This document shows, one piece after another, positions 16,797-62,895 of a stretch of DNA of 64,000 nt (position 1 is the first letter of the stretch; every line of letters begins with the position of its first letter). The stretch spans positions 50,001 to 114,000 of the forward strand of contig CAMXCT020000883.1 in NCBI GenBank assembly GCA_947184155.2, read 5' to 3'. Both the position numbers and the translations under genes were made by a program. Source of the DNA: Cladocopium goreaui (Eukaryota > Sar > Dinophyceae > Suessiales > Symbiodiniaceae). The notes beneath the pieces were generated by a model that saw nothing but the letters and a program-made list of their open reading frames with translations, had not been told where the DNA came from and ran no database searches.

Positions 16797-17668
16797 GCGG
16801 TACCATAGGGCTACCTCTAGAGATGGGCTGGGATGCCTCCAGACTCTTTGCGGATGAAGTCAACATTGTCAGCGGCTCAGCCAAGCTTGTTTTCCTGGAT
16901 GTTCATCCCAGCAGATTTATGGAACATTCTACCCTCTGGTAATTTAACATAGCTATTGAAAATGGCCATTTATAGTGGATTTTCCCATTAATAGCATGGT
17001 GATTTTCCATAGTTATGTTAAATTACCAGAGGGTAGGTGCTGATCCATGCCCATATTCTTGGAATATCTTGGAGCAATTGGTTCAACCACCAGGTTTTGC
17101 TGTTTTTTTTCCGCCAGGACTATCAGCACTATTCCACGGGGAAGTTCTGCAACAACGGTGGCAAAGTCCCGTTCTTGGTCGAAGGCAGAGATTTTTCACC
17201 AGCGTGGCTCGATATGGCGCCCACACCCAGGAACTGGATGGCCAGTGCGATGGCGCCACTTCGAGGGTTTTTTGAATGGTTGATGATTGTGTTTTTGATG
17301 GTCACATCAAGGCCAAAGGTGATGGATTTTGCATGGGATCTTGGATGTGGGAAAAAATATTCACCGGACACCCCTTGATTTCCGCGTCGCGAAGTTCCAA
17401 CGAAGCCAATGACTTTGACCAAAACGGACCGGAAACCCCCAAAGAGATCCAAAGAGATATCTCTGAACATCTCGGGACTCTCACAATCTGCGGAGGCCTT
17501 TTTGACCCGGAGGAGTGCATTCTGCGCTGCACCAAAGCACAGAATTGCGCCTTTGCCACGATGTATCGCAATGGCTGGTGCCAACTGGGAAGCAAATGTG
17601 TGGAAGAAGCGGAGGCGGGTGATAGCTCCGCCATGACCTACGCCAAGGTGTGGGATGTTATGGACTGA
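16797..17668 (+). CDS. PAN/apple-like cysteine-rich protein, partial
   Basis: Three exon candidates: 16797 to about 16929 (GTIGLPLEMGWDASRLFADE, VNIVSGSAKLVFLDVHPS), 17118 to about 17265 (acceptor CCGCCAG; DYQHYSTGKFCNNGGKVPFL, VEGRDFSPAWLDMAP), and about 17402-17668 (EIQRDISEHLGTLTICGGLF, DPEECILRCTKAQNCAFATM, YRNGWCQLGSKC…AMTYAKVWDVMD, stop). The last shows the spacing of PAN/apple modules (C-x3-C-x5-C…C-x5-C with aromatic YAKV at the end), a fold that binds protein or carbohydrate and is usually extracellular (family knowledge). Exact junctions are unresolved: the frame changes between the second and third exons, so an intron is required around 17270-17400. Confidence 0.5.
16930..17035. 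mobile_element. Hairpin MITE copy in the PAN-like gene
   Basis: 106 bp, perfect termini TACCCTCTGGTAATTTAACA and TGTTAAATTACCAGAGGGTA. The arms are nearly fully complementary (GCTATTGAAAATGGCC…GATTTTCCATAGTTATG). Flanked by TA on both sides. Lies between the first and second exon candidates of the PAN-like gene. Confidence 0.9.
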
Positions 17669-18068
17669 AGCTGGTCGCATGTGATGGAAATTTGGGTGGA
17701 TGGATTCTTACCGAATTTTCATGAATTTTCGACTACAATTGGGATGAGAATCTCAATTGACTCAATTTGACTCATACATTTTGGATGGCTTGCAGCTAGC
17801 CACGAATGAAATCGCCACGCAAGAATCGGAGATTTTTGAGATGAGACCGGGGGTTCCTTGGAGGTAAACAGACCGCAGAAATGATGGACCCAAACAGGGC
17901 AGTGAACGGAGGATAGGTTTCCTCCTAAAACAGTTTGTCACAACTAGTCAGATAGTCATGATTAGTTATGTTTGATCATGTTTGGGGTTCCATTTTTGAT
18001 TTGGGTATCATTGTGTGCCTAAGGTCATTTTTCTGTCAAGGCTTCGTTTCCATCCTCCCTGCCCGTAG

Positions 18069-18130
18069 GTGCATGTGAAGTCACTTTGTCGAGATGGGCA
18101 GTGTCGGGCGCTGAGGAATCATAATCATAG
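18069..18130 (+). CDS. Possible small exon
   Basis: CCCGTAG|VHVKSLCRDGQCRALRNHNH|GTCAGT: an acceptor, an open frame and a donor in the right order. A second coding-like, cysteine-rich stretch (CEAKVPWKDESAKRAGECC, AMLCAS) follows at about 18310-18405. They may be parts of a second PAN-like module, but this is weak. Confidence 0.25.
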
Positions 18131-18822
18131 GTCAGTTTTTCTTTGTTCCAAAACGATCGACCAAAACATGGTCATTTGGAGAATATGGAAAAAAATGGGT
18201 ATATTCTCCCACATCTCCAAACAATATGGTCTCCCAAATTTAGGAACATATCCCAATTCTGATGTCCCGAACCATGGGAATATCACTTTGGGATACCTCG
18301 AACATCCTCTTGTGAAGCGAAGGTCCCTTGGAAAGATGAGTCTGCGAAGCGCGCGGGGGAATGTTGTGCGATGTTGTGCGCAAGCCGCACATCGTGAAAA
18401 TGCGGTGCGGTGAAAAAGTGGCGTGCAGTCATCATGATGAATGGAACACAACGCAATGCAATGAGAATACCAAACCCATTAACAGCGTCACGATAGGACA
18501 TAGCTGTTGCAGCCCAACATGACAGAACTATGTAAGGTGTGATACTTTCAAGATTGCAAGTGGGAGAGAACGCAGCATTTTTTCCCCACAGTGTTTTGCA
18601 AACAACATCAGCATTTAAGTGGCTATATATTATTATTTTGAACTATGTCACTATGTCTCAATTCATCTCAATTCTAACTGGCCAAATTTCTGAAGACAAA
18701 AGCCCACGTGATTTTTTTGGGGTGTTCCATGGGTTTCCTAAGTTTTGGGGGTACCCCAATATGGATGGTTTATCATAGAAATTCCTATGGAATCCTATGG
18801 ACATTCCTTGGCTTTTACCGAG

Positions 18823-18934
18823 GGAATGCCACGTCTCCGAGTCGGGCATCAAAGGGCTGAAGCTCACACGAACCATCACCGGCACAGCCACGGAGGTGCC
18901 AACCGCAGCGCGTTTTGGATACTGGGCCAGCAGG
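18823..18934 (+). CDS. Probable internal exon, unrecognised gene
   Basis: After TTACCGAG the frame reads ECHVSESGIKGLKLTRTITG, TATEVPTAARFGYWASR and ends at donor AGG|GTTGAT in phase 0. Clearly protein-like compared with its surroundings. Family not recognised. A hairpin MITE starts 83 bp downstream, in what would be the next intron. Confidence 0.45.
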
Positions 18935-19016
18935 GTTGATGAATGGATTGGTTTTTCAAGATGTTCAAGGAAACTCCTGGGAAAATCCAAAAATCTTGAC
19001 CGGAAACCATGGTTTG

Positions 19017-19125
19017 TACCCTCTGGTTATTTAACATAGCCATGGGAAATGGCCCATTTATAGATGGCTTACCTATAAAAAATGGTGATTTTCCATGGCA
19101 AACTGTTAGTCATAACCAGATGGTA
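19017..19125. mobile_element. Hairpin MITE copy, GGTTATTTAAC sub-type
   Basis: Starts TACCCTCTGGTTATTTAACA and ends CATAACCAGATGGTA, TA on both sides. Arms: CCATGGGAAATGGCCC and GATTTTCCATGG. Confidence 0.85.
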
Positions 19126-19395
19126 CATGTTTTTACCATCGGTTTGTGGGGATTCCTATGGTGCATTTTCCCAGCAATCCAATGAGTTGAGGATTGGTAA
19201 CACCCAATTTACGAATGGGGAGTCCCAACATAGTAGTGCTTCCCCTTGTGAATGACACCCAATTCGTAAACGAAGGGTTTATGAATCTGGGGGTCACAAA
19301 AATTCACCCAGAGTGAGTCAGAATCAGCATTGAAGCAGCATAATCAGGCAAAGCGTCAGTATCAATGGAGTGATCCGAGGATGGGTCCCATTCAG

Positions 19396-19580
19396 AAATC
19401 TCAGAACACCTCTGCCCCGGATTCCTTCCTTCAGCTGCGTGGTTCAAGCGCCCTGTGGTTCATGCGGGCGGCCCCAGCCTTGAAGCTTTTCCGGCTCACG
19501 AGCCTTCGTTGTGACATGCACTTTGGCAGCAAAGAGTCGAGGGCCCTGAAGGGCCTGGAGTTGTTCTTTTGGGGCTATAG
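19396..19580 (+). CDS. Probable internal exon, unrecognised gene
   Basis: Acceptor CCATTCAG, then KSQNTSAPDSFLQLRGSSAL, WFMRAAPALKLFRLTSLRCD, MHFGSKESRALKGLELFFWG, YR and donor ATAG|GTGTGG. The middle part has regularly spaced basic residues in a hydrophobic helix, loosely reminiscent of an ion-channel voltage sensor, but this is not enough for a call. A 10-bp satellite begins about 20 bp downstream. Confidence 0.45.
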
Positions 19581-19602
19581 GTGTGGTCATCATGCACATA
19601 CT

Positions 19603-21375
19603 GATACATACTAATACATACTAATACAATCTAATACAATCTAATACAATCTAATACATACTAATACATACTAATACATACTAATACAATCTAATACATA
19701 CTAATACATACTAATACAATCTAATACATACTAATACATACTAATACATACTAATACAATCTAATACATACTAATACATACTAATACATACTAATACAAT
19801 CTAATACAATCTAATACAATCTAATACACACTAATACATACTAATACATACTAATACAATCTAATACATACTAATACATACTAATACATACTAATACAAT
19901 CTAATACAATCTAATACAATCTAATACATACTAATACATACTAATACATACTAATACAATCTAATACATACTAATACATACTAATACATACTAATACAAT
20001 CTAATACAATCTAATACATACTAATACATACTAATACATACTAATACTAATACATACTAATACATACTAATACATACTAATACATACTAATACATACTAA
20101 TACTAATACTAATACATACTAATACATACTAATACATACTAATACATACTAATACATACTAATACTAATACTAATACATACTAATACATACTAATACATA
20201 CTAATACATACTAATACATACTAATACATACTAATACTAATACATATCTAATACAATACTAATACATACTAATACATACTAATACATACTAATACATACT
20301 AATACATCTAATACAATCTAATACATACAATACATAATACATACTAATACATACTAATACATACTAATACATACTAATACATACTAATACATACTAATAA
20401 TACATACATAATACATACTAATACATACTAATACATACTAATACATACTAATACATACTAATACATACTAATACATACTAATACATACTAATACAATCTA
20501 ATACATACTAATACATACTAATACATACTAATACAATCTGATACAATCTAATACAATCTAATACATACTAATACATACTAATACATACTAATACATACTA
20601 ATACATACTAATACATACTAATACATACTAATACATACTAATACATACTAATACATACTAATACATACTAATACAATCTAATACATACTAATACATACTA
20701 ATACATACTAATACATACTAATACATACTAATACATACTAATACAATCTAATACATACTAATACATACTAATACATACTAATACAATCATACTAATACTA
20801 ATACATACTAATACATACTAATACATACTAATACATACTAATACATACTAATACATACGAATACATACTAATACATACTACATACATACATAATACATAC
20901 GAATACATACTAATACATACTAATACACATACTAATACATACTAATACATACTAATACATACTAATACATACTAATACATACGAATACATACGAATACAT
21001 ACTAATACATACTAATACATACTAATACATACTAATACATACTAATACATACGAATACATACGAATACATACGAATACATACTAATACATACTAATACAT
21101 ACTAATACATACTAATACATACTAATACATACTAATACATACTAATACATACTAATACATACTAATACATACTAATACATACTAATACATACTAATACAT
21201 ACTAATACATACTAATACATACTAATACATACTAATACATACTAATACATACTAATACATACTAATACATACTAATACATACTAATACATACTAATACAT
21301 ACTAATACATACTAATACATACTAATACATACTAATACATACTAATACATACTAATACATACTAATACATACTAA
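19603..21375 (+). repeat. 10-bp satellite CTAATACATA, about 1.8 kb
   Basis: About 175 copies of CTAATACATA. In the left part (to about 20040) a variant CTAATACAAT alternates with it in blocks such as three-plus-three or three-plus-one. From about 20860 to 21080 a CGAATACATA variant appears. The right 300 bp is a nearly pure CTAATACATA run. Confidence 0.98.
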
Positions 21376-21527
21376 TTATTAATACATAGTATATGTGTAT
21401 ATCTATATATATATATATACATACGCATACTTACGCATAATAGACGTATGCATATACATATTCACATATGTATATATATATATATATCTATTATAATTAT
21501 TATATCAGTGATATTCAGTGTTTATAG

Positions 21528-21642
21528 TTCGAACTTCTCCATGCCACACCGCGGTGAGGTTGGACATGGACGATCCCCTTGGCCTTGGTTATGGGGACGA
21601 GATTGGGATTCGACGACGAGGAGGACCTCCCACGGATGGGGG
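21528..21642 (+). CDS. Possible exon upstream of the CobW gene
   Basis: After TTTATAG the frame reads RTSPCHTAVRLDMDDPLGLG, YGDEIGIRRRGGPPTDGGG. Good composition but no clear donor. Could encode the N-terminal region of the CobW-family protein that follows. Confidence 0.3.
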
Positions 21643-21852
21643 GGGTTCATCACCTATAACGGATTTATAACGGTTATAACGGTCATGTGTAGATGGGATA
21701 AACATGGATAAACATGGATGATAAACCACTTAGATACTTGTTGCCTAGTTGTTGAATCTTCGTATTACTTGCTTTTGACTTGCCATAGAGGCCACACTGC
21801 GTGGGGAATTTTTCACTCCAACTGGAAACGTCATGAAACGTCAGGACGGCAG

Positions 21853-24800
21853 AAGCTACCTCCGCCAAAGGTGCCAGTGTCAATCCTGTGCGGATTCCTG
21901 GGTGCCTTGGCTCGACCCAGCACGTCACGCTGCACGTCACGCTGAAAGTCAACGCTTCACGGTGACGCCCTGGCTGTCAGGTGCGGGGAAGACCACCATG
22001 GTGCAGCACATCCTGAAGAATCGCGAAGGGCTCAAGGCCGTGGTTTTTCCCGAGCAATTCCTAGGGAAACTCATGGAAAACCCATGGAAAACCCATGGAC
22101 TTCCAATGATTTTCATAGCCATGTTGGATCATGTTGGATTGCTGGAGGGTCTTCATGCAGGTCGGGGTGGTGGTTAATGATGTTGCGGAAGTGAACATCG
22201 ATTCAGAGGCGAGCCGAAGATCCCGGTTTTTGTGCATTGATGCAGGATGATGCAGCACTGCGAGAATGCTAACATTTGGTAACTTGTACCGCTTATTGAA
22301 AATCAAAATGGCCCTGTAGCGCACTGTTTTATGGATTATATCGGTGGAATACAGAGTGTAATGTCCTAAGTGCAGTGTGCTGTAATTTGGTATGCAGTAT
22401 GCATGCAGTCTCACTGTTCACACGGCGTAGGCCCATTTTTTGGAGGCTCTGTGTTTGTAACACCATTCAAGTGGTAGACAACCCTAGTTGTTGGGGTATC
22501 TATACGGGATATGCCATACATCTGAAGAAGGTGCCGTCACTCATCCAAGGAGTAGCCACGGATCTTTCCATCTCGGCAGGTTTTGAAGTTTGAAGATGCG
22601 GACGGCATTGTTGGGCTGCAAAATGGCTGCGCCTGCTGCTCTGGAAGGCTTCTTTCGGCCTGGTCATGCAGTTCATTCACGTAGCCGACAATGGGGTATA
22701 CTGGAGGACTGTACGATCCAAGGACAACTTCTGTTACCATTTGGTAATGTGGCAATGGAAAATCCCGTACAAGTCGGGGGTTCAATGGGAAAATCCAGGA
22801 ACTATCTGGTGGATTTTCCAGCAACTCACTTTTTATTCCTGGAGGGTACATGTGACCTACATACTTTTTTTTTGAAATCATTTGCATACATAGACCCTAC
22901 AGATGTCATGTAGCTCTGAATTCCATGTGCAGGGCAGATCTGTTCGCACGACTGCAAGAGCTGGTGGAGAGCAGTGGCATCACCAAAGTGGAGAAACCTT
23001 GGGACAGGCAGCGCATGGGTGGCCTGGGAGAAACTGGGAGATGCCACTGGCCATGGCAGCATCCAGACCAGGGGAGACCCATTTTATGGGTCGAGGCTTT
23101 TGGGGCCTTTTGGGCTGATTTTTGAGCACAGAATTTGGCATCATATTATCGGATCTTTATATATATATATATACACAGCCCGGTTTTTTGATGGTTTGCC
23201 CACTGGTTTGTTTCAGCAATAACATGTTTTTCTGCCTTTAGAATCTTTAGTGCTGGTTGACGAATGTCTCAAGTGCGGGATCACCATTCTGCTGCTTGAA
23301 TTCTGCAGTGGTGTGTCCAGAGTCTAGTATTATCATGTATTATCTCGTCAGGTCATATCCGGATGGGTGGCCATAAATATTTACTTATAATATATTTATA
23401 AACATGTTTTCCATATCAGGATGGGATTTTACTTTTTTAATTGTGGCCATAAATGTACTTTTTAAATAAAATATACATATCCCATCCTGGCTTGATTGAA
23501 ACCGCCAATTCAATGTGCTTAGAATCTGGCTTATTCTGGCCTATTTTCCAGAACATCCATTACTTGGGCAATCTGTAGGGAATAGTTACCATAGGTACCT
23601 TTTTTTGGGGGTTCCTTAAGCAAATTCCTTTATGCCAGTCATTGGTAGCTTCACCCGAGCCTCGCGCCAGGTTAGTCGTGGAATGCTCTGGCGTCGCGGA
23701 GCCTGAGAGCATTGCTGCGGAACTCGAGGAGCCGATCTGAGGGAAGAAGCAAATGGGGCGCCCCATTGATCACTAGTAAAGGGATTGATCAGTGGCTTAT
23801 ATCTTACCATAGTTGTAGGGATTATAGATGATTATATACATTTTATATCCCCAAAAAAATGGAGGTTTAAGTCTCATATGTAATTAGTTGATCCATTCAT
23901 AACCCTGGGTGTAGGACACCCCCAAGCATACCCTCCAACAAACATAGCCAATTCGAGTGGGAAAATGATCCACTGGAACTGGAAACTGCAAATTTGATCA
24001 CTTTTTTTTGCAGCACGCTGTGGTAGTTCAACCTGGGAACAAAAAAAGTCACTATTCGTATCCGATCAAATTCCAATGTTGCTGGCAAAGAATTCGGTCT
24101 CACAATGTCGGAAACAGAGGTTTACTGGGCCATAGAGGATTTCTTGGTTTTAAAAGTAGCCATGATAGAGAAACGTTATTTTTTGGACTTGGAACCAGTC
24201 TGTGAGAATGCTTCAGGGCTCCAGTTTTGACATGTTTTGAATTGTTTTGACCTTGGATTCTGCATGGCAGGACAGGGGAAGAAATGGTGATGCACTGATG
24301 AAGAGACTTTTCCTGGCTGGCATTATCTGTGTGGTCGATGCTTCCGCCTTCTGGGAGATGTACAACTCAGGCAGTTTTTCTATGGCAGCAGTTGTGCCCT
24401 CCAGATGGAATCATCTTGAATCCATTAATCACCATTCAATATGGGTATGGATCAATACCTATTAATACCATTTTTAGGGGAATGAACATCCATTGACCAG
24501 CTATTTTGATGTTCACCAGGGGTACAAGGTTTTGACACACTGCCATATCTTGAAACATCTTGAATCTAAATCAGTCTAAAACAAATTTCCAGGATTTATT
24601 TCCAAGATTTTCCGGGACGTTTGGCTCAGACTTGCCCAGCCGCTGATTCGAAACGACTCACGACCGAATTTGAAGTCGCCTTTCTTCAGCGCTGTAACCC
24701 CATCCCTCCACCAACCTCGAAACAACTTGTTTTGATTAATTGTATATTTATATAATTCTGTATCATTTTACACCATTATATATAATTAATTATATAATAT

Positions 24801-27800
24801 ATAAATATGTATATACATATATTTACATACATATAAGATGACTATGAGTAAATTTTCTGAGGTGTTCATCATTGTCAGAAGGGATCGTATATGATCATTT
24901 TGCATGCTGTTCAGGGCTCACTTTATTTTTTGAGATGCCATGAGCTGCTGATTCACCTTGGTTTCTGAAGGAGGTGGGGATACACCCAGAACTTGGACGA
25001 TGGAGTGACCCGATTTTAGCTGTCAGCGCAGCTCTGCACTGAGAACTTGGATGAACTTGGCAAAGGCAGAGTTTTCGCGTCTGGGACACTGTGGCTTTCG
25101 TGAAGGAGCAAGAGACATGGCAATGGTGACATGACGTTTTTCCGAAGGGTGAGCATGGCGCCGGCTGCTGGTGCTGGTCCAGCTGGGGGAAGTCATGGCT
25201 CTTCCCGAGCTGGCGAAATTGAATCCCTGCACCGGCGTGGAGCATGAAGAAGTCAGATCACAGTTATTCACTCTATGGCACTAAGCATGGCATCAGGCGA
25301 GCTGTGGCATCTCAAATCTCATGATCTGGGGGAAAGATGCTGAAGTTCAAGGACTTCCCGGCTGTTTTATCAGATTTATAAGCGCCCAAGTCCTCTGGAG
25401 GAAGCAGTCATTGAAGATGTTAAAAGAACTTGTTGAATACTTTTGACCAATTTAATGTGTGAGGTAATGATTGGTTCCCTGCAGCGCCCTGCATATGGCT
25501 TTCACCAGCGAGAGTCGAAAAAGTGGCCGACAGACGATGCACAGCGCCCGTTCCTCCCTTTGCACAGCGCCTTCGGATGTCAGGCGACCAGGGTGATACA
25601 GAGCGCAAACCCTTGTCAGCATTGCTGGTGAGCCAACTGGAGTCTTCTGACACTGCGACTCGCCTTCAAAGATCAGTTGAAAATCACTTTACTTGGAGTG
25701 ATCCCCAGCCTGACATGTTGTTTTGACATTTTTTTTGGCATTCTATCTGACATATATTCTGATAATATTTCTGGCATTCTATCTTTCTGACATTCTATCT
25801 GGCATTTTTCTGGCATTCTATCTGACATAGATTCTGGCATTCTATCTGCCCTCACCTGGCAAGCGGGGAATAACACAGAGAAAAAGTCGACGAAGTTCTG
25901 CATGCGGATGGATAGTGATTGTGCACAATAACAAGGTTTAGTAAGAAATGCGTTTCGGTAACAATAGTAGTGAAATGTACTGTAGCAATATATAATACAT
26001 GAATACATGATAATACATGTAACATCTGAGTATACACATCATTATGTACACATTATACGTTGATATACGTTGTGTGCGTAATAAGATTTGTTGAGGCTGA
26101 TCATGCTTGAGCGTGCACTGGCACCATTTCCTGTTTTTTTTTTGGGGGGGGGCATCAGCCCTCAGCCCACATCCGCCACTCGGAGAGGTCATCATCAACA
26201 AGACGGACTTGGTCCCTGGCTTGCAATCAGCAGCAACTCAGTCGCCCGCCATACCCTCTGGTAAACGTTTACATAACTATATGGAAAATCACCACTTTAA
26301 TATAGGTAAATATAGGTAAATCAACTATTTCTACGGGCCATTTTTCAATAGCTTTTTGTATGTTTACCAGAGGGTAGCCATCCACATTTTCCCGGCATCC
26401 CTTGCCTGGCTTGAGGTGAGCAGTGAAGAATTGACCAGAGTCTCGGAACTGCTGAAGGCATTGAGTCCCAATGCCCGCCAATTTCAGGCCACACGTGGGC
26501 AACTCCCCTTGAGGCCTGGTGCGGTTTGATTTGGCCTTTGGAGCCGAAAAAATATGAAATAATAGCCGTACTTGCTTGGGTTTGGCAAGACCCAAACATC
26601 CAACCATTATATATTATATATGTAATTTATATATATATATATAATATATATATAATTAAATTATATTTATATATATATATAATGAAATTATATATATATA
26701 ATTATATATATATATATATCCATTGATCATCATTTTCCCATCTTTCACCTTTAATTTAAAGGCCCTACTGTTGGGGATCCCATTTCCCGGCAGGACACTG
26801 TTGCCTGCAGAGCCCATCGACCTCGAAATGCCGGCGTATGTCCCCACCTTGCCCAATCGACACAGTGCAGCAGTGCGTAGTGCTGAAGGCGGATTTTTCA
26901 TGGATGCCATGGTGGTGAATCCCATCTATAGTCTATATCCATCTATCATCATCTATCATCATAGAAACCTGTTGTTTTTTCAGGGGTTTCTTCAAACCAC
27001 TCTTTTTTCATCAACCAATGGGAATTTGGGACATCTGGGATGATGGCTGTTGTTTTGGCGTCTCGTTTTTCGGCCATGACTCCATTTGACACAGGAAGCC
27101 ATGCGTCCAATGCCCGGCACCCGGCTGGTCGGCTGGTCGGTGCTGGTCGTGCCAGGTTTCACTGACTGTTTCAGATTTGCTATGGAAAATCATAAGTTTT
27201 GATAGCTAAATCATTGATATCATTGAACTAACTGGTTCATTTTCCCTAGCTATGTTACTGCAAATGACCTGAGGCTATTTGATCTATTTCATCTGTTTGA
27301 CACCTGACATCTCAATATATCTCAAGCCTGATCCTGCCGATTGAGGGCCACCATCATGATCATGCGCACAATGGGGAGGAGTGTAGCACCTGCACCGGTG
27401 CCCGCCATGAACGCTTTGGCATCTCCAGCGGCTTTGACATGATTTGGTGGCTGGGGATGGGTTGGGGATGGATTGGGGGTTTATTGGGGGGGGGCATGGT
27501 TACCCTCTGGTAATGTCAAAATAGCTATTGAAAATGGCCATAGAAATAGTGGATTTACCCATTGAAAATGGTGATTTTCCATAGTTTTTTGTATGTTTAC
27601 CAGAGGGTAAGAACCATGTGCTTCCATGTTCTTCTCAACATTCTAGCTTTGCGACTCAGGTTTCGTGTACCGTTGCCACGATCGCAGCTTCCACCCAGAG
27701 AGGTTGGCGACGATTATTCGAAGCTCAGCTTGGGAGAGCATGGTGAGAGCGAAGGCTTCATGTCCAAAGGCACTTGACTACTTTCGGTAGAGAAAACTTT

Positions 27801-35109: not shown

Positions 35110-37645
35110 CTACGCCCTCTGCCGCCGACCCCTGGACACTGGAGGTTCATGTCTGTGGGAAACTGAGTGACCAACGGAGGCTGGTGCAGGTGCGCAATCT
35201 TGTTTCGTCGCTTGCTTTTTTGTTCTGTCCCATGGCAACAGAACATCTAAAATGTATGCAAGCAAAGGAAGTTTCGAAGTCAAACTTCTTACAAGAGGGA
35301 CAGATGGAAAAGCAGAGATGGGAGGAGTCAGAGAAGAGCAGAGAAGAAGCAAGAAGATCAGACATTTCTCCTGCCTTCTTGCCCGCCTCACGTTGCTTGC
35401 TGCAGGTACAAGAAACTAGCTGTCTTTTTCTGATGCTTTTGCAAGACACTAGCTCTCCTTTTGCATTTGCCGCTGCTTTCTCCTGCCTTCTTGCTCGCCT
35501 CACGTTGCTCTCTGCAGCTACGAGAAACTAGCTGACTAGCTGTCTTTTTCTGTTGCTTTTGCCGCTCCTTTCTCCTGACCTTCAAAAACGAGCTTCAAAC
35601 CTTCAATTTGCTTCCCTTCCTGCACTGCTGGCTGCCAGCTTATAGCCTTCTTCTTGCGCAGCTCTCGCAGGGCTAAAACACCATGGCAGTGAAGGACGGA
35701 TCGGGCCCGCGGACCGTAGCCAAGACTGCCAAACGTCACTTACTGAACCGGCTAGAAACATCTAGAAACTAGCTCCAAACCTTGACTTTGCCTGCCCTTC
35801 TGCACTGCCAACTGCCAACTTAATCGTGTCCTCCTGCAGCTATAGCTTTCGTTCTGCACAGCAAACTAGCTCCAAACCTTGGCTTTGCCTGCCCTTCTGC
35901 ACTACCAACTGCCAACTTGCTCGTGTCATCCCGTGTCCTCCTGCAGCTGGCTTTCGTTCTGCACTGCAAACGCTCCAAACCGTGACTTTACCTGCCCTTC
36001 TGCGCTGCCAACTGCCAACTTGCTCGTGTCCTCCTGCAGCTGGCTTTCGTTCTGCACAGCTCCGGTCCAAGGACCCCCCCGCTGGGCCGCTGCTTTCTCC
36101 TGCCTTCTTGCTCGCCTCACGTTGCTTTCTAGCTGTCTTTTTCTGATGCTTTTGCCGCTACTTTCTCCTGACCTTCAAAAACGAGCTTCAAACCTTCAAT
36201 TTGCTTGCCTTCCTGCACTGCTGGCTGCCAGCTTGTAGCCTTCTTCTTGCGCAGCTCTCGCAGGGCTAAAACACCGTGGCAGTGAAGGACGGATCGGGCG
36301 CGCGGCCCGTAGCCCAGACTGCCAAACGTCACTTTCTGAACCGGCTCGAAACATCTAGAAACTAGCTCCAAACCTTGACTTTGCCTGCCCTTCTGCATTG
36401 CCAACTGCCAACTTGCTCGTGTCCTCCTGCAGCTATAGCTTTTGTTCTGCACAGCAAACTAGCTCCAAACCTTGACTTTGCCTGCCCTTCTGCGCTGCCA
36501 ACTGCCAACTTGCTCGTGTCCTCCTGCAGCTGGCTTTCGTTCTGCACAGCTCCGGTCCAAGGACCCTCCCGCTGGGCCGCTGCTTTCTCCTGCCTTCTTG
36601 CCCGCCTCGCGTTGCTTTCTGCGGCTACAAGAAACTGGCTGTTTGTTTCTGATGCTTTTGTAAGACCACTAGCTACTATTTTACTATATTTTACTCTTGC
36701 CGCTGCTTTCTCCTGCCTTCTTGCTCGCCTCACGTTGCTTTCTGCAGCTACGAGGAGCTAGCTGACTAGCTGTCTTTTTCTGTTGCTTTTACCGCTACTT
36801 TCTCCTGACCTTCAAAAACGAGCTTCAAACCTTCAATTTGCTTGCCTTCCTGCACTGCTGGCTCGCAGCTTGTAGCCTTCTTCTTGCGCAGCTCTCGCAG
36901 GGCTAAAAAACCATGGCAGTGAAGGACGGATCGGGCCCGCGGCCCGTAGCCCAGACTGCCAAACGTCACTTTCTGAACCGACTAGAAACATCTAGAAACT
37001 AGCTCCAAACCTTGACTTTGCCTGCCCTTCTGCACTGCCAACTGCCAACTTGCTCGTGTCGTCCTGCAGCTGGCTTTCGTTCTGCACAGCTCCGGTCCAA
37101 GGACCCTCCCGCTGGGCCGCTGCTTTCTCCTGCCTTCTTGCCCGCCTCACGTTGCTTTCTGCTTCAAACCTTCAATTTGCCTGCCTTCCTGCACTGCTGG
37201 CTGTCAGCTTGTAGCCTTCTTCTTGCGCAGCTCTCGCAGGGCTAAAACATCATGGCAGTGAAGGACGGATCGGGCGCGCGGCCCGTAGCCCAGACTGCCA
37301 AATGTCACTATAGCTCCAAACCTTGACTTTGCTTGCCCTTCTGCACTGCCAACTGCCAACTTAATCGTGTCCTCCTGCAGCTATAGCTTTCGTTCTGCAC
37401 AGCAAACTAGCTCCAAACCTTGGCTTTGCCTGCCCTTCTGCACTACCAACTGCCAACTTGCTCGTGTCATCTCGTGTCCTCCTGCAGCTGGCTTTCGTTC
37501 TGCACAGCTCCGGTCCAAGGACCCTCCCGCTGCGCCGCTGCTTTCTCCTGCCTTCTTGCCCGCCTCACGTTGCTTTCTGCTTCAAACCTTCAATTTGCTT
37601 GCCTTTCTGCACTGCTGGCTGCCAGCTTGTAGCCTTCTTCTTGCG
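35110..37645. repeat. GC-rich tandem array with ~500-bp composite units
   Basis: Blocks recur in order: TTTCTCCTGCCTTCTTGC, CTTCAAACCTTCAATTTGC, CTTCTTCTTGCGCAGCTCTC, GCAGTGAAGGACGGATCGGG, CCAGACTGCCAAACGTCAC, GCACTGCCAACTGCCAACTT, GCTCGTGTCCTCCTGCAGCT, TTCTGCACAGCTCCGGTCC. Complete units lie at about 35460-36110, 36110-36720 and 36720-37160, with shorter partial units between. Many open frames on both strands (Leu/Pro/Cys-rich forward, Arg/Gln/Lys-rich reverse) are shared by all units and have no splice or start context; I regard them as repeat by-products. Confidence 0.8.
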
Positions 37646-39355
37646 CGAGCTTGACATTGGAGACGAGGTTCCAGAGTCAACATGGAAGGTTTTGAAGAAA
37701 CGCCGTCTCCTACCAGGAGCGCTCACCTCTTTTGATGATTTTGCAAATTTATTCCAAAGCTTAGCAGATGTGAACGTTGAGTTCCAGGGTCAACCCGCTG
37801 AGCCGGTTTCCAACTTTGATACAATCTTGCATGTGGTTCAGAAGTACCAAGATAACATTGGGGCCCTCTATCCCCGATTTTCGAAACACATGGTGCGTTT
37901 GGCCAGCTGACATGTCGATCCGGGAGCATGCCTTGATGCTGTGGATCATAGAAGGCTCCGATTTCTTGAGGTTTCATGAAGGTGATTGCTACATGCTACA
38001 CCCTTGTGGTGCCTTTCAGAGGTACAAGGGGGTGCCACCTGACTCCAGCAGAATCAGTAGTCTACTTTTAGAGCTGGAAGGCATGTTTCGGCGCTTTCCC
38101 GAAGATTCACCTCGCGACCACGAGCGGCTTCTCCAGGTCATCAACCAGCAATGGCAAGAGGCTGGGGAAAATGAAGAGCTGCTCAAGACGAGGTGCATCA
38201 AGGCTGCAGTAAGCAATGTGGGGGAAAGCTTAGTGAAGCAGCGGGGTGGAGATGACGCTGATATGGATGGAGATGTGAAAAATTGGCGAGTTTATGCAGC
38301 ACGTGTTGTGCTCCAGTTGAAGGTACGGCTTGCGCGGGAACTCACAGAGGAAAAACTTCTGCATTACATGGTGGAATGGTGCGAGACTCCAAAGAGAACC
38401 GCATCCGCATGCTGCTTCGAACATTGTTGCGTTGAGTATTGCGACGAGGGTGTAGCTCGCCAGGCCTGGCTACTGTGAAAGTTGCATGCATTTTGGAAAC
38501 AGAGATTAGCTTTTCGGATGTTGAAGCACCTCTATAGGCAGACATTAGAGAACTTGAAATTTGAAGGTGTCTTCCCCAGAAATTGAAGCCCCTGTGAGGT
38601 CGCAAGGGCTAACATCAAGGACGTGTACACCTTCATTCCACATAAGCTCAAAGGGGTTGTGCAACCAGACATTGTCGAAAGGCTGCAGAAGTTCTACCGG
38701 CAAATGTTTTGGTGCAACCTTCCTATCTTTAAGTGTTGCCAAGCAGCGCAGGCTTTGGCGAAAAGAGGGTACAATGTCGTGCGGATCTTCATTGGCCTCT
38801 CTTCTGGAGGAGTTGGGCAGTCGCTGTATTCAGCTCATCTGCAGTCGCCGAAAGTTATGAAAAGCAATCGGGTTTGCAATTATTTCCGTCTATAAAGAGA
38901 TTAGTGGAAGACAGTCTTAAAGTAAACTTTGCCTTTGAACTTGAGAATGCCATAGGCGATGTACGGAGCCAACTTTGCGTACTTCGATCCGAACATCGGG
39001 TGGAACGAAGACGAGATGAGAAAGCAGATTGAGCAGCTGAATGGTTGCTTTGTGCTGACAGGTAGGACGCGCATACGTCATGCGTGTCACAGCTAAATTC
39101 TCTGTCGTGACTACAAGTAGACAGCAGTGCGTGAGACAATAGCTAACAAAATTTAAAAACCGTTGGGTTGAAAGAAAGCTCATCTTTCGATGTTAAAGAC
39201 ATGATGTCAATCTGTGGCCGTAGGACAAGAGGCACCGGGCACCAACAAGCGGCTCAGAGAGGATCTCTATAAAAAGTTTATGGGCGCCGAAGGCATTTCG
39301 GGTCGCAAGCCGTACGGCCTTCGTACCCGCATGATAGAATGTCGTGGATGCAGCT
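37646..39355 (+). pseudogene. Frameshifted helicase-like gene fragment inside the array
   Basis: A 1.7-kb insert of different composition interrupts the array after TTCTTCTTGCGC; the array resumes at GCAGCTCTCGCAGGG. It encodes, in shifting frames, DEVPESTWKVLKKRRLLPGA, FDTILHVVQKYQDNIGALYP, MSIREHALMLWIIEGSDFLR, SSRISSLLLELEGMFRRFPE, FIPHKLKGVVQPDIVERLQK, a P-loop-like VVRIFIGLSSGGVGQSLYSA, NFAYFDPNIGWNEDEMRKQI, EQLNGCFVLTG and NKRLREDLYKKFMGAEGISG. The order (N-terminal region, P-loop, Y-D-P-N, acidic stretch) resembles superfamily-3/D5-type helicases of mobile elements, but in the P-loop the usual K-S is Q-S. Frame breaks occur near 37910 and between 38400 and 38620; a GT-AG intron may lie at 39061-39224. 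Both ends of the gene are missing. Confidence 0.5.
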
Positions 39356-40530
39356 CTCGCAGGGCTAAAACACCACGGCAGTGAAGGACGGATCGGGCGC
39401 GCGGCCGGTAGCCCAGACTGCCAAACGTCACTTTCTGAACCGATTAGAAACTAGCTCCAAACCTTGACTTTGCCTGCCCTTCTGCACTGCCAACTGCCAA
39501 CTTAATCGTGTCCTCCTGCAGCTATAGCTTTCGTTCTGCACAGAAAACTACCTCCAAACCTTGACTCTGCCTGCCCTTATGCGCTGCCAACTGCCAACTT
39601 GCTCGTGTCCTCCTGCAGCTGGCTTTCGTTCTGCACAGCTCCGGTCCAAGGACCCTCCCGCTGGGCCGCTGCTTTCTCCTGCCTTCTTGCCCGCCTCACG
39701 TTGCTTTCTGCTTCAAACCTTCAATTTGATCAATTTGCTTGCCTTCCTGCACTGCTGGCTGCCAGCTTGTAGCCTTCTTCTTGCGCAGCTCTCGCACGGC
39801 TAAAACATCATGGCAGTGAAGGACGGATCTGGCGCGCGGCCCGTAGCCCAGACTGCGAAACGCCACTTTCTGAACCGACTAGAAGCTAGCTCCAAACCTT
39901 GACTTTGCCTGCCCTTCTGCACTGCCAACTGCCAACTTGCTCGTGTCCTCCTGCAGCTGGCTTTCGTTGTGCACAGCAAACTTGCTTCAAACCTTGGCTT
40001 TGCCTGCCCTTCTGCACTACCAACTGCCAACTTGCTCGTGTCATCTCGTGTCCTCCTGCAGCTGGCTTTCGTTCTGCACAGCTCCGGTCCAAGGACCCTC
40101 CTCCTGGGCCGCTGCTTTCTCCTGCCTTCTTGCCCGCCTCACGTTGCTTTCTGCGGCTACAAGAAACTAGCTGACTAGCTGTGACTAGCTGTCTTTTTCT
40201 GTTGCTTTTGCCGCTGCTTTCTCCTGCCTTCTTGCTCTTGCTTCTGGCCCTTCTTGCTTTCCCTTCGCGCGCTTGCTGCCTGATTTTGTTTGATCCGTCA
40301 ACTCTTGCTCTCATCATTTCTTGCCCCCGGCTGATGGTAATGAGTCTTCTCTGATGCTTTTGCAAGACACTAGCTGTCCTTTTACTTTTGCCGCTGCTTT
40401 CTCCTGCCTTCTTGCTCTTGCTTCTGGCCCTTCTTGCTTTCCCTTCGTGCGCTTGCTGCCTGATTTTGTTTGATCCCTCGACTCTTGCTCTCATCATTTC
40501 TTGCCCCTGGCTGATGGTAATGTCTTCTCT
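39356..40530. repeat. Continuation of the GC-rich tandem array
   Basis: The same blocks as 35110-37645 resume. At the right end a 135-bp stretch (TTGCTCTTGCTTCTGGCCC … GGCTGATGGTAATG) occurs twice, 181 bp apart (about 40209 and 40390). A further relative with GAAGGACGGATC lies at 40606. Confidence 0.8.
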
Positions 40531-52476: not shown

Positions 52477-52540
52477 CAAACATATTCAAACATATTCAAA
52501 CATATTCAAACATATCCAAACATATTCAAACATATTCAAT
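52477..52540 (+). repeat. ACATATTCAA tandem repeat
   Basis: Six to seven copies of a 10-bp unit CATATTCAAA. Confidence 0.9.
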
Positions 52541-52564
52541 CGGACTGTTATATTTTCATGCCCC

Positions 52565-52736: not shown

Positions 52737-53014
52737 ATCAAATATGGGAACCAAGTATATAGCCTATAGTAACCCATGGTAACCCCAAGAATCGGTAGAT
52801 GATGGTATAGGCAAGCATCCAACATAGAGGATTCACGATCAGTCCAACATGTTGTAACAATATTTCTGGATATTTCTGTGATATGAGGCAACACTATTTC
52901 TGGGATACAAGGCAATGCAACAATATTTCTGGGATATGAGGCACCTTTAGGTTTTGACCCACTGCTATCTACCAAGACACTCTTGAAATTGGCGTCCAGC
53001 GGACACGACTACAG

Positions 53015-53530: not shown

Positions 53531-53534
53531 TTCT

Positions 53535-53690
53535 TGCTGGATGGACGCCGAAGTTCTGGAAGTCCAGCACCATTGGGACCATGCTGCCGCCGCGTCTGCC
53601 GGCTGCTGCACGATCACCGTCATCCTCCGCCCTGCGAGGCAGTGGAGGCAGTGGAGGCATTGGAGGCAGCGTGGGATTTCATGGGGACAT
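53535..53690 (+). CDS. Coding-like island, frame ambiguous
   Basis: GC-rich. One frame reads MDAEVLEVQHHWDHAAAASA, GCCTITVILRPAR, another LLHDHRHPPPCEAVEAVEAL. It ends in a short GCAGTGGAG repeat. Not assignable. Confidence 0.2.
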
Positions 53691-54137
53691 GTAATGACAT
53701 GTACAAGTTTTCCATATTTTTTTTTTCAAACAACTTTTAGGTTTATGAATCGTTAAATGGGGACAAATTTGGATCAGTTGACCAGCTGAAAATCGGGATG
53801 CGGGGACCAACAAAAAACCGACAAACAGTTGATATCAGGGGTATGGATAGCCCCTACAGATTCCCAACAGTTTGAACACTGATTTCCAATCCGTTGGAAT
53901 TGTGGGCGTGAAATTCTCAGAACCGATCTGCTTGGGGAGGGGAACTGGGATGATGTTTTCTGTCGGACGAAACAGTCAGCTGAGCAGTGGCTGCGGTCTA
54001 CCCCTGTTGGTTGATGATTACGGGGGTCATACTACTATCTTGGGGTTGTCAGTACGGGAACCTCCATCAATACAGCAGTAAAATTAATGACATCTCAGGA
54101 TTTGAACACAGCTTAGTTGCTCTCAGTTTCTGCCCAG

Positions 54138-57100: not shown

Positions 57101-58164
57101 CGATGATTTTACCTGCCAATTTAATGGTGACTTTCCATGGATTCCATAACGATTTCAAAATTTTCAAATTGCAAGAGGGTATCTGCTTGCAACCAGTTAA
57201 ACATGATTGATGGACATTTGATATGACTAACCACTGGGCAAGTGACATGTCCATCCCATCATATTTCCAGGTATGCCGATGGCACCCTGCAACAATCTGA
57301 CAGTTTCCATGGTATTGACCCGCCCAATAGAATCAAATAGACATATAATTTATCATCTTCAAACAGATAGAGAATTGTGATTTATTGCATGTTATACCAT
57401 GTTATACCTTTCTTTTTTTGGTACTATATTTCAAGAGATACTTCAACAAAAACAAGGGCTGCCATGGCCACATGATCCGGATGAATTAGATCTCGGGAAT
57501 CGTAATCCATAGCTGGGCCGTATGATATCAGCGATTTTGTCAGGTTTGTGAAGAATCAGAATTCAGATTCATATGGCTTTATCATCAATCAATGATCAAA
57601 AATCCTCCATTCACAATAATCTATAGAATCTATAGATCAGTTTCCCATTCAAACCTCTAACAAAAAGGGGCATTTCTGGATGATATCCGCATCATCATCA
57701 GCATCAATTAATAATCTGAGACTTTGGGATAAATTTAGAGACTACCATGATCTCCAATCACTCCCATCCATCATCCTTCCATAGTTGGTGAACTCCTCCA
57801 ATTCCTCACGATCAACCCCATTTATGAGCTTTAGTCTGCCCTCCGGGAATCATAACGTAGCAATCGAACCTCCCTCATTTATAATACCCTCTGGTAAACG
57901 TTTACATAATTATGGAAAATCACCATGTTTAAGGGGAAAACTCACTATTTCTATGGCCATTTTCAATAGCTTTTTGTATGTTTTACCAGAGGGTATAATA
58001 TTTATAGATGATTTTCCCAGCTAGAAACCGCCATTTTTGGGGGATTTCCCGGCCAGCCAAACTCTGCCGTCCCGCGAGAGGCGGCCAAGAGCGAGCGTGC
58101 AGCGAGGCAGGAAGTGGAGACGTTGGTGGCAAGGTCTCTGGAGCTTTTGGCACCATGTCTTTGA
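54138..58164 (+). CDS. Coiled-coil protein gene, several exons
   Basis: Exon 54138 to about 54500 (acceptor CTGCCCAG) encodes a coiled coil, VMETELDQIQSEITRLQAEN, ASLRQLLKA, then LKEELCNTVERRRRLEHAVR. Further exons: 55023-55080 (QALADGAAMVEAERLQEQS), about 55100-55175 (PGAVGPALVGTMGFLNREDR), 55332-55559 (acceptor CTGCGAG; EVLDVEQLVFDTAMSLMAVD, GWAQQLAARLRVASRDLLRH, SKVSTAALRRKLRRHQ, donor CAG|GTCTTT), 56462-56515 (APVELPNAVLKALGEALE, both splice sites good) and terminal 58057-58164 (PNSAVPREAAKSERAARQEV, ETLVARSLELLAPCL, stop). The last three join in phase 0. The piece at 55023-55175 is frameshifted unless a 19-nt stretch is removed. Helical throughout; family unknown. It may be more than one gene. 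Confidence 0.5.
56516..57884. other. Probable long intron
   Basis: No exon seen. Contains a decayed hairpin element at about 57035-57181 (GGGTAATTTTTGTTAACTGG … GCAAGAGGGTA). Confidence 0.4.
57885..57995. mobile_element. Hairpin MITE copy, GTAAACGTTTAC sub-type
   Basis: Starts TACCCTCTGGTAAACGTTTA and ends GTTTTACCAGAGGGTA. TA on both sides. Ends 61 bp before the terminal exon at 58057, inside the inferred intron. Confidence 0.9.
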
Positions 58165-58975
58165 ACTCCAGATGAACTCCTCCAAATCGGAGATCATCTG
58201 AGATCATATAGAGAAATCATCCGAAAAATCTAGAATTCGAGATATATGGTGATAATCATAGGCTTTCAAAAAAATACGGGAACCATCAAATCCATTCATA
58301 TTCCCCAGTGAAAATTGTGATTTTTGGGTACACCCCGTTTTCAGACGCACTTATTTTGAAGCTGCCAATTGAGCAGCGGCTGCGAAACCACGGTTGGTGT
58401 TTAAGCTTAATTCGGGGGTGGTAATATATATATATATATATTTGCGATATTATCATGAATCATAATTATCCACGAGCTGGGAACCCCTATTGACATCTGT
58501 TAACCATTGTTAACCAACGAGGTGAGCTGCCAATCTAGCTTGATGCCCTGCAAATACATTGGAACATTCTGGAATCATTCTCAGTTTTTGAGAACAAAGC
58601 TGACTATGCCGAAGGACACGACAACGATAGCACTAGAGATCCCAAGCATTTCATGTCGTCATGAGTGGTCGGATACACACGTATGCGGGTATAGATATGT
58701 ATTCAGGTGCATCTTTACATGCATGTGTGGTTTCTTGCTGTGTCTAGACTATTTGTCCATTTATCATCATTTATCCATCTATCCATTCATCCATCTACCC
58801 TCTAGTAATTGCGATACTTAAGGCCAAAGATACGGACCTCTGGTAATCCAACAGTTTGCTATGGAAAATGGACCATTTCGCTCGAGGATTTCCATGATTT
58901 CCCGACTATGCCGAGGCAGATTGGGCAACAACCCTTTGGGCTGCCAGAGCCGCTTGGTGGATGTGACGTTGTATC
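58165..58975. other. Stretch without a supported gene
   Basis: A TATATA run near 58425-58445 and a short CATCTATCCATT repeat near 58760-58800. No exon supported. Confidence 0.4.
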
Positions 58976-59090
58976 TACCATCTGGTTATTTAACATAGCC
59001 ATGGAAAATGGCCCATTTATAGATGGTTTACCTGGGTTTATCTATTAAGAATGGTGATTTTCCATGGCTATGTTAAATAACCACAGGGTA
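58976..59090. mobile_element. Hairpin MITE copy, GGTTATTTAAC sub-type
   Basis: Starts TACCATCTGGTTATTTAACA and ends GTTAAATAACCACAGGGTA. A decayed half-copy (CCTCTGGTAATCCAACAGTT) lies at about 58838-58910. Confidence 0.85.
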
Positions 59091-59269
59091 AATGTTCATG
59101 AATGTTCATGATTTTTTTTTATAGGTTTTCCACTCAAAGATATGGGTGATATATGAAGGTTTCCACAAATGCGAGGGTACCCCAAAATGGATGGTTTTAT
59201 CATGGAAGAATCCATGAAACTCCTATTAAGATGGATGAGTTGGGGGTACCACTATTTTAGGACACCTTT

Positions 59270-60030
59270 ATAATTACATACATATATATATATATAAACG
59301 TATATATATATATATATACATAATTACATATATATATAAACGTATATATATATACATAATTACATATATATATATAAACGTATATATATATATACATACA
59401 TAATTATATATATATAGATATATATAAACGTATATATATATACATAATTACATATATATATAAACGTATATATATATATACATACATAATTACATATATA
59501 TATATATAAACGTATATATATATATATACATAATTACATATATATATATATTAACGTATATATATATACATAATTACATATATATATAAACGTATATATA
59601 TATATATACATATATATATACATAAACATATATATAAACGTATATATATATACACATAATTACATATATATATATAAACGTATATATATATACATAATTA
59701 CATATATATATAAACGTATATATATATATACATAATTACATATATATACATATATAAACGTATATATATATATATACATACATAATTACATATATATATA
59801 TATAAACGTATATATATATACACATAATTACATATATATATATATAAACGTATAAACGTATATATATATACATAATTACATATATATATATATAAACGTA
59901 TATATATATATACATAATTACATATATATATATATAAACGTATATATATATACATAATTACATATATATATATAAACGTATATATATATATATACATAAT
60001 TACACACACATATATATATATATATATCAG
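59270..60030. repeat. AT minisatellite, unit CATAATTACA plus ATAAACGT
   Basis: About 18 imperfect units of roughly 35-45 bp, each with CATAATTACA and ATAAACGTATA separated by (TA)n. Confidence 0.95.
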
Positions 60031-60689
60031 TTGTCATGTTGATCAGTTTTTTTACTTCTTGCCATTTCATTTTAAGCGACGGTGAGCCAAGGCTGGTGTC
60101 GAGAAAGCGGATGGAAAAAGACACACTTGGGCCGTTGGGATTAATGGTGCTTTAATGGTGCTTTAACCATGAAAAATGGTGGTTTAATGGTGGTTTAACC
60201 AAAGAAAATGAGGATTTTAACGGGATTTCTATATGATTAATGTGGGTAAAACAAGAAAGCACCCATTTGGGAATGGTTGGAAGTCCACCTATTTATGGTG
60301 ATTTGGGGCATAGTTTATTATTGTTTTACTCACATAAATGGGTAATAACCATGGTAATGATATGTATTGTAGTTGATAACCAGCATAAGTTGGGATATGG
60401 TAGCTATATTATATGGTTATATTAGGAAAATCCATTTGGAACTGCACCTTTCACGTATTAAATTGAGTTTCCCCAACCACATGATTCAGAATGAATTATG
60501 CTTCATGCTGCCACCATGACTAGGTTGGTAAAGGACATCTTTCTATTTCGATGTTTCAATCTTACAAAAAGAAGATTCCATCATAAAATACAGGTGCTCC
60601 TTAAAAAAAAAAGCGTTAAAATAACAATTCTTCTTGGTTTTATAGTTTGGAACACCCCATATGTTGCCTGGTCGATTCCACCTCGCTAG

Positions 60690-61525
60690 GCCACGCTCCG
60701 TCCAGCCGTGCGCTTCCATTGCCAGGTGATTTTTGGGGGGTTTGGGTGGTGCCCCCCAGTGAATGATGTTGATTTATAATCCCCTTTAGCGAAAAAGCAG
60801 TGTTCTCCATAAAGCCTAGTTATTGGACTAACAAACCAACTTCGTCAACTATGGGGCCCCATCCTGTGTATTTTTCGGGGATGGAGGGTTTTAAAGAAGG
60901 AACAAATCTGCACTGTTGGAGATGTTTTGTCAATATCAATTCACAGCTAGATTTCTACAATCTAAATAGTAGCAACGACATATTCATCAGCTGTTTCCCC
61001 AGCATTAATATCCTATTTAATATATCATTACTGTATATATCATTAATATCTCATTCCCCTCACATACCCCATTGGTTCTATCATACTAATATCTGATTTC
61101 AACCATCTAAACATAGTACCAACGACATATTACTCATTTGATGATCATCATAGTATCTTCAGTGCACATCCCCATCATTTCACCACTTTCACCATATCCT
61201 ACTAATACACATTTAATTTGTAATATCCCAATACTAAAATCCCACAAATTTCTCCATCATATTATCAGGAAAACTTGCTTGCCTGCGGCAAGCCCGCTGG
61301 CCATAGAGAGGTGGCCCCAAGGGAGTTTGATGTGCACTCTAGGTGGAAGCCGGAGAGAGAAGCATAAGAGAAGAGAAGAGAAGAGGAGAGGAGAGGAGAG
61401 GAGAGGGAGAAGGAGAAGGAGAAGGAGAAGGAGGAGGAGGAGAAGGAGAAGGAGAAGGAGGAGAAGGAGAAGGAGAAGGAGGAGAAGGAGAAGGAGAAGG
61501 AGAAGGAGAAGGAGACGAAGAAGGA

Positions 61526-61556
<31 letters not shown>

Positions 61557-62895
61557 GGGAGACAAAGACAGAGCCGTAAAACGGAAGTAGCTTGTGTAGC
61601 AAGTGCTTGCCGTAACAACCTATTGACAGTATACCGACCCCACAAAGTAGCGCCAGGTACTATGTACGAGCCTCCAGCTTGACAGCAGACCACTGCATGG
61701 AAGGGGACAGGGTGGAAGCGGAGAGAGGTTGCCCCAAGGGAGGTTGATGCGCACGCTAGGTGGAAGCCGGAGAAGAAGAAGAAGAAGAAGAAGACAGAGC
61801 CGTAGATCAGAAGCAGCTTGACTAGCAAGTGCTTACTGCAACAACCTATTCACCGCATACCAAATCAGTACAGGTCGATCAGTTTAGTACCGTGTACATC
61901 CTGTGACTAGCACCGGTAGACAGTTTCGCCAGCTACCGTCAATACCGGTTTAGTACGACGACGACGACGACTCCCACTCCCACTCCCACTCCCACTCCCA
62001 CTCCCACTCCTACTCCCACTCCTTCCTTCTTCTCCAATTAAGTCGGTGTCGTAGTCGTAGTATGTCGTAGTCGTATACGTAGTCGTAGTCGCAGCTGTCG
62101 TCGGAGGAGGAGTAGTAGGAGTAGTAGCAGCAGGAACAGCAACACTTACACTGACACGCTGGCAGGACTATCACATTAATACCCCATTGGCATCACATTT
62201 CCCCACCATACCTCCATGATCCCACCCTATTCCCATAAGCTTCCCATAGAATAAAGGGCTTTCGCATGGTAGGAATATCACAGCAATATGTTCATGATAG
62301 TCAATATCCCCATCACCATCATGGCCAATATCTCCATCACTATCCCCATTACAGAACTATTTTCATTGGGATCATGGTCAATATCCCCCATCACCTCACC
62401 ATTTTCACCCAGTTTATATGTCAACCCTGGATTAATAAACCCCTAGATTGTTTAATTGGGAGGGTACCATTTACCCTCTGGTAAATAAACATAGACCCTG
62501 AAAATCACCAATTTTTAATGGAAAGTAGTCTTCCAACCCCGATGACTGCCAGGGTCGAACTGTTAATTTACCAGAAGGCCTCTGGTAACCTAACATAGCT
62601 ATGGAAAATCACCATTTTTCATGGGAAAATCCACTATTTCGACTGGGTCATTTTCAATAGCTATTTTGACATTACCAGAGGGTAAATCCCATTAATATCC
62701 CATTAAACCACAATAAAACCCCATTAAATCCAACCATTTATGTTAAATTACCAGAGGGTACCATTTAAGCATCACGACTCACCATTTTCACCCTTCGGGC
62801 ACCGTGGCTCGATCGCCTTCTGCTAGGTGCCCTGCGGAATCTTCACCGATGAGCTCCGCGTGCAGGCCATGATGGAGGACGGCGTCAACTGCCCG
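60690..62895 (+). CDS. sodN: Nickel superoxide dismutase (Ni-SOD), two N-terminal exons
   Basis: Exon 60690-60725 (acceptor CTCGCTAG; ATLRPAVRFHCQ; donor CAG|GTGATT) and exon 62827-62895 (acceptor TGCTAG; VPCGIFTDELRVQAMMEDGV, NCP; donor CCG|GTAAAA) join in phase 0 to give HCQVPCGIF. This is the nickel hook H-C-x-x-P-C-G-x-[YF] that defines Ni-SOD: His1, Cys2 and Cys6 bind nickel once the leader is cut off before His. The usual Tyr9 is Phe here. The residues before His (TLRPAVRF) would be the end of a removable leader. Ni-SOD converts superoxide to peroxide and oxygen. The start and the 3' exons were not found; the rest lies upstream in unseen exons or beyond the window. The 2.1-kb intron is full of microsatellites and a tandem MITE pair. 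Confidence 0.65.
61296..61840 (+). repeat. Duplicated block around GCCCCAAGGGAG
   Basis: GCCCCAAGGGAGTTTGATG…CTAGGTGGAAGCCGGAGA (61313-61355) recurs at 61731-61771, each followed by a GA-rich run, then CAGAGCCGTA and TAGCAAGTGCTT. Confidence 0.8.
61360..61565 (+). repeat. GGAGAA microsatellite
   Basis: (GAGAGG)n, (GGAGAA)n and (GAAGAA)n inside the Ni-SOD intron. Arg/Glu- and Ser/Pro/Leu-rich open frames are artefacts. Confidence 0.97.
61957..62135 (+). repeat. GACGAC, CTCCCA and GTCGTA microsatellites
   Basis: Short runs of GAC, CTCCCA (about nine copies), and GTAGTCGTA. Confidence 0.95.
62472..62684. mobile_element. Two hairpin MITE copies in tandem
   Basis: Copy one starts TACCCTCTGGTAAATAAACA and ends AATTTACCAGAAGGCC. 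Copy two begins within the last bases (GGCCTCTGGTAACCTAACA) and ends ACATTACCAGAGGGTA. A lone right end (GTTAAATTACCAGAGGGTA) follows at 62742-62760. All lie in the Ni-SOD intron. Confidence 0.85.

Follow-up and report, generated by a model that had tools for sequence, protein, structure and literature searches.

A family of nearly palindromic, TA-flanked short elements in Cladocopium goreaui DNA: probable Tc1/mariner-type miniature transposons carried as intron passengers

The DNA analysed here comprises 64,000 nucleotides of the dinoflagellate Cladocopium goreaui (contig CAMXCT020000883.1, positions 50,001 to 114,000; hereafter the window) and contains a real family of short elements. It is highly probable that these are nearly palindromic, non-autonomous DNA transposons with a TA target, i.e. 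miniature inverted-repeat transposable elements (MITEs) of the Tc1/mariner kind, which, where the host gene could be read, are passengers of introns and not makers of introns.

Copies, ends and class of the family

The two termini (CCCTCTGGTAA at one end and TTACCAGAGGG at the other) and element-sized pairs of them were searched for throughout the window, and a profile was then built from the 12 two-ended copies. With at most one mismatch allowed, the 11-base terminus was found 26 times, as compared to a mean of 0.76 and a maximum of 4 in 100 shuffles. Leave-one-out profiles recovered 12/12 copies, the weakest (62474) at 26.9 bits and all others at 48.5 bits or more; the top score in 60 dinucleotide-shuffled windows, which served as the null, was 10.2 bits. 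A first-pass annotation had claimed at least 12 copies at 14 coordinates, and a family member was indeed found at all 14, 12 of them two-ended and two degraded, the latter missing an intact left end. Older remnants scored 20 to 25 bits, and four additional places scored 11 to 14 bits with the 12-copy profile. The members are listed below, with the first base past the TA in brackets for the full copies.

6276..6389 (6278), plus strand: full copy, TA to the left and TG to the right, 81.1 bits
16930..17035 (16932), plus strand: full copy, near-perfect hairpin, TAG to the right, 87.7 bits
19017..19125 (19019), plus strand: full copy, GGTTA subfamily, 78.2 bits
26252..26376 (26254), minus strand: full copy within the CobW intron inferred at 26212-26415, 72.7 bits
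27501..27609 (27503), plus strand: full copy within the CobW intron inferred at 27431-27659, 89.2 bits
30408..30511 (30410), plus strand: full copy, CG in place of the acceptor AG, 87.4 bits
30929..31047 (30931), plus strand: full copy, GGTTA subfamily, 63.9 bits
31760..31863 (31762), minus strand: full copy, most perfect hairpin (-64.6 kcal/mol, z -15.8), 89.0 bits
57885..57995 (57887), minus strand: full copy, seemingly inserted into an older, degraded member (weak evidence), 82.4 bits
58976..59090 (58978), plus strand: full copy, GGTTA subfamily, CCAC where the acceptor AG would be, 78.8 bits
62472..62578 (62474), minus strand: full copy, though diverged, and fused with the one that follows, 66.7 bits (26.9 under leave-one-out)
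62578..62684 (62578), minus strand: full copy, fused to the preceding one, 97.0 bits
5296..5404, plus strand: degraded copy, left end lost, 41.0 bits
14422..14505, minus strand: degraded copy within the cupin intron inferred at 13801-14548, 48.1 bits
12429..12514, minus strand: remnant, 22.0 bits
22736..22848, minus strand: remnant within the CobW intron inferred at 22648-22932, 20.3 bits
27176..27276, minus strand: remnant, 25.2 bits
58837..58893, plus strand: remnant, 20.6 bits
62737..62760, plus strand: lone right end adjacent to the fused pair, exact terminus, 11.8 bits

Between the TA dinucleotides the full copies measure 100 to 121 bp. TA is found to the left of 11/12, to the right of 10/12 and on both sides of 9/12, in agreement with the earlier description of TA-flanked inverted ends; the exceptions are the copy at 6278, with TG at its right, and the fused pair 62474/62578, in which the shared TA is missing. 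Two subfamilies of the terminal inverted repeat (TIR) can be discerned, as GGTTA replaces GGTAA in three of the 12 copies (19019, 30931 and 58978). Pairwise identity ranges from 68 to 94% among 11 copies, with 62474 as an outlier (56 to 62%). The identity of each full copy to its own reverse complement is 0.63 to 0.88, and all 12 form hairpins that are stabler than those of shuffled sequences (-34.6 to -64.6 kcal/mol, z -4.0 to -15.8). Seven full copies are aligned in one orientation and five in the other, as expected of a passenger without intron polarity.

The copy at 57885 seems, on weak sequence evidence, to have landed in an older family member: when joined, its flanks reach 11.7 bits with the family profile, and separately 4.7 and 3.1 bits. 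Read from the sequence by eye, the fused pair lacks GTAC relative to two intact ends, and the arrangement at 62460-62775, which includes the lone right end and is bracketed by the 12-base direct repeat GGGTACCATTTA, may have arisen from local rearrangement between copies.

Short, non-coding elements with inverted terminal repeats and copies of similar length are considered MITEs, and all of these features are found in the 12 full copies, which share their TIRs. The inverted ends at TA support the earlier reading of the family as Tc1/mariner-like MITEs. Membership in Stowaway was rejected, considering that the conserved CTCCCT end of Stowaway elements is present at 0/24 ends. Transposons of the piggyBac type target TTAA and those of the PIF/Harbinger type duplicate 3 bp of their target. 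TTAA on both sides was observed in 0/12 copies and equal 3-base flanks in 0/12, and piggyBac and PIF/Harbinger (Tourist type) were rejected on these grounds. The same two counts speak against the broader proposal that these TA-target MITEs derive from some superfamily other than Tc1/mariner; this is unlikely, even if the Tc1/mariner assignment draws just on the TA and the TIRs and a transposase was not found.

The hairpins allow for another reading, namely that they are transcribed together with a host intron and diced into double-stranded RNA, so that small RNAs silence the family or its transposon. Stable hairpins in 12/12 copies, some of them within inferred introns, are in line with such a role. 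On the other hand, a comparison of the window with Rfam gave no match at or above the gathering score of a family, and the base pairing already follows from the palindrome. We consider a small-RNA source very unlikely, and it would be compatible with the MITE assignment rather than exclusive of it.

With respect to novelty, the terminus string was matched in 7 papers, none of which deals with transposons or dinoflagellates according to its title, and the family was not described in the titles and abstract beginnings of the papers listed on introners and on MITEs with Symbiodinium or Symbiodini- as a term. An exact-pattern search of prokaryotic and viral contig collections returned no copies from outside the window, which says little. 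This is probably a new family, although one of a kind already known: a short palindromic TA-target MITE with a Tc1/mariner-type transposase as its mover. Such a transposase, encoded elsewhere, would bind the CCCTCTGGTAA ends, excise the element and reinsert it at a TA. Copies would be retained at places where they cause little damage, in genomes of this type mostly introns and spacer DNA. A copy within an intron would be removed from the transcript along with that intron, and the GT and AG close to the ends would be a by-product of the TIR sequence and no working pair of splice sites.

Host genes and placement in introns

At least seven copies had originally been placed in introns, but exons on both sides are supported only for a CobW-like gene (26254, 27503 and the remnant at 22736) and a cupin gene (14422). 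The joined exons of the former match positions 1-176 of the 180 in the Pfam cobW profile (2.7e-30; 105.7 bits against a cut-off of 20.7), and the CobW reading matches YjiA of E. coli in the PDB at 2e-13, for the N-terminal part only (residues 2-107 of 226). The cupin gene has a PDB match of 9e-4 that spans the exon junction. The remaining candidates were not substantiated: the PAN gene scored 14.0 bits and the coiled-coil gene 16.3 bits, below the Pfam cut-offs of 21.4 and 28.7, respectively, and no Pfam match was found in 37774-38475, the guessed location of the HECT gene. The exon at 62827-62925, held to be Ni-SOD-like, had no match in Pfam or the PDB and no upstream exon was found. The open reading frame (ORF) at 62827-62895 reads VPCGIFTDELRVQAMMEDGVNCP, which we take to resemble the metal hook of Ni-SOD.

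In each of the four resolved cases the element lies inside a larger inferred intron. It is separated from the two splice sites by 594 and 43 nt in the cupin intron 13801-14548 (GA-AG), and by 87 and 84 nt, 40 and 39 nt, and 70 and 50 nt in the CobW introns 22648-22932 (GC-AG), 26212-26415 (GT-AG) and 27431-27659 (GC-AG), respectively. Subtraction of the element leaves 639 nt of the cupin intron and 173, 81 and 122 nt of the CobW introns. The earlier reading of the two full copies in CobW, 26254 and 27503, as passengers is supported. The 81 nt that remain of intron 26212-26415 contain no stop and their number is divisible by three, and the frame alone is no proof of an intron; retaining these 81 nt, however, brings that part down from 30.0 to 20.7 bits against cobW, which argues that the intron existed apart from the element. 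The host intron itself is bounded by a direct repeat, CCTGGCTTG being present near both of its ends. Donors of the GC and GA type are described as common in Symbiodiniaceae (PMC11453091).

A preference of the family for introns, as initially claimed, was not borne out. The stop-free span at restored sites had a median of 81 codons, as compared to 54 at random TA sites (P 0.08), and did not exceed that at GC-matched TA sites (P 0.27). The GC content around the copies exceeded that around all TA sites (P 0.004), a difference that vanished when simple-repeat TA sites were left out (P 0.27). Placement in introns is to be expected by default, since in one Symbiodiniaceae species they reportedly account for 92% of a gene on average (PMC11114475). 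The same source gives a GC content of 45.8% for one Symbiodiniaceae group, and that of the window, 43.1%, is close to it; like the GC and GA donors, this agrees with a dinoflagellate host without proving one. A uniform spread of the 12 copies over the window was not rejected (Kolmogorov-Smirnov P 0.43); the gap without full copies from around 32 to 57.8 kb has a binomial probability of 0.002, for an interval that was chosen post hoc. Other repeats in the window include units of 150 to 300 bases at 35531-40154, several copies of which are 90 to 97% alike, and, at 19466-20055 and onward, an extended tandem array whose period is 10 bases, with 155 overlapping copies reported. A search for relics of the spliced leader yielded one site in the window with 2 mismatches and thus no support.

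Several observations weigh against the picture of Tc1/mariner-type passengers. Among the 49 distinct ORF stretches run through Pfam, which represent part of the ORFs of the window, no transposase was found. There was no clean empty site either: when the joined flanks were compared with the window, only low-complexity matches spanned the junction, so that the TA as duplicated target is deduced from the flanks only, and the nested case at 57885 does not separate one TA from two (11.7 versus 11.1 bits). On the side of the introns, the splice sites were picked by eye for in-frame continuity of the protein, from protein similarity without RNA, and just two of the four resolved cases concern full copies, the others being one degraded copy and one remnant. 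Furthermore, the exon downstream of intron 27431-27659 scores 18.1 bits against CobW_C (cut-off 22), in a match that starts just past the junction, and the exon upstream of this intron was read by eye.

Splice-like ends and the introner question

The ends of the element resemble a donor (CTG|GTAA) and an acceptor (CCAG|AG), and it had been suggested that a copy landing in an exon could be spliced out at its own ends. The family would then be an introner, creating new introns. GT and AG are present at matching places in 10/12 copies and such elements are documented in dinoflagellates, but we consider membership highly improbable. In the first place, splicing as proposed would leave a scar of 13 nt in these 10 copies, made up of CCCTCTG, AGGG and the additional TA, or one of 11 nt with CAGAG as acceptor, so that the reading frame is shifted in both cases (for the fused pair 62474/62578, where one TA is missing, 2 nt of target were assumed in this count). 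Most introner families are reported to preserve mRNA length, with some adding or removing whole codons (PMC9860276). Secondly, donor and acceptor constitute a single motif that has been counted twice, as the reverse complement of CTGGT is ACCAG: a left CTGGTAA within a TIR dictates a TTACCAG at the right end. Among random 11-base TIRs, a left-end GTRA occurs in 6.2% and is combined with a right-end YAG in 1.0%. Moreover, the signals are not maintained throughout the family, with GTTA instead of GTAA in 3/12 copies and no AG in 2/12.

The position of the elements points in the same direction. Within the window, the ends of the element coincide with intron ends in 0/4 resolved cases (introns inferred without RNA), the distances being 39 to 594 nt, and the restored sites are, as mentioned, no more open than GC-matched TA sites. 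The introners of Symbiodinium have target duplications of 4 bp (PMC9860276). In the four inferred introns the base after the AG is G, and at the proposed acceptor it is A, a weak argument considering that the sites were picked by eye. Introner membership fails on both intron ends and reading frame in the cases that could be resolved.

A conditional variant can be conceived, in which a MITE lands in an exonic TAG and the donor CTG|GTAA is joined to an acceptor made by the duplicated target (AGGGTAG|), which would add 6 nt in-frame; as part of this proposal, the remaining insertions would be lost or kept as intron passengers. Such a frame-keeping splice is possible at TAG targets only, and TAG lies to the right on the plus strand at 3 of the 11 sites examined (16932, 26254 and 31762; the fused pair was taken as one). 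At 16932 a G follows the AG, as in the four inferred introns, and the restored site is open over 116 codons and the +6 product over 140, which is unexceptional (the 75th and 90th percentiles of random TA sites are 98 and 143). Against the variant, no Pfam match was found around 16932 and the copy at 26254 lies in an independent intron. We deem it extremely improbable; if true, it would constitute a new route by which a TA-target MITE can make introns.

The distinction between passenger and intron-making MITEs matters as dinoflagellates have been reported to gain introns via transposons. Splice-like TIR ends alone are weak evidence, since a single motif accounts for donor and acceptor alike, and scar length may serve as a quick filter.

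Comparison with known systems

The introners described for Symbiodinium microadriaticum (PMC9860276) are, like the present elements, short and TIR-bearing and found in genes of a related kind of host. They are described, however, as having a 4-bp duplication and a donor taken from the target, with the element constituting the intron, whereas the present family is flanked by TA and lies inside larger introns. Similarly, the introner elements reported for Amoebophrya (PMC7789003) share the inverted repeats, hairpins and short length, but have their inverted repeats at the splice boundaries, together with direct repeats of 3-5 nt. BogoMITE of the ciliate Blepharisma (PMC9942856) is likewise described as a MITE of the Tc1/mariner superfamily of which many copies are tolerated; it is eliminated from the DNA during development, and nothing like that is shown for the present family.

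Comparable as well are the Stowaway elements of carrot (DcSto; PMC3695323), for which a TA target, AT-richness, near-perfect hairpins in some families, nested insertions and intronic occurrence are reported; they differ by their conserved CTCCCT end, found at none of the 24 ends here, and by their plant host. Submariner_Ps1, a Tc1/mariner MITE of Pandoravirus salinus (PMC4495683), is described as a short, nearly palindromic, non-coding element with a TA target and an autonomous partner elsewhere. It measures 243 bp and resides in another host, and the likeness is one of description. By analogy, the family described here may well work like the Stowaway and Submariner elements.

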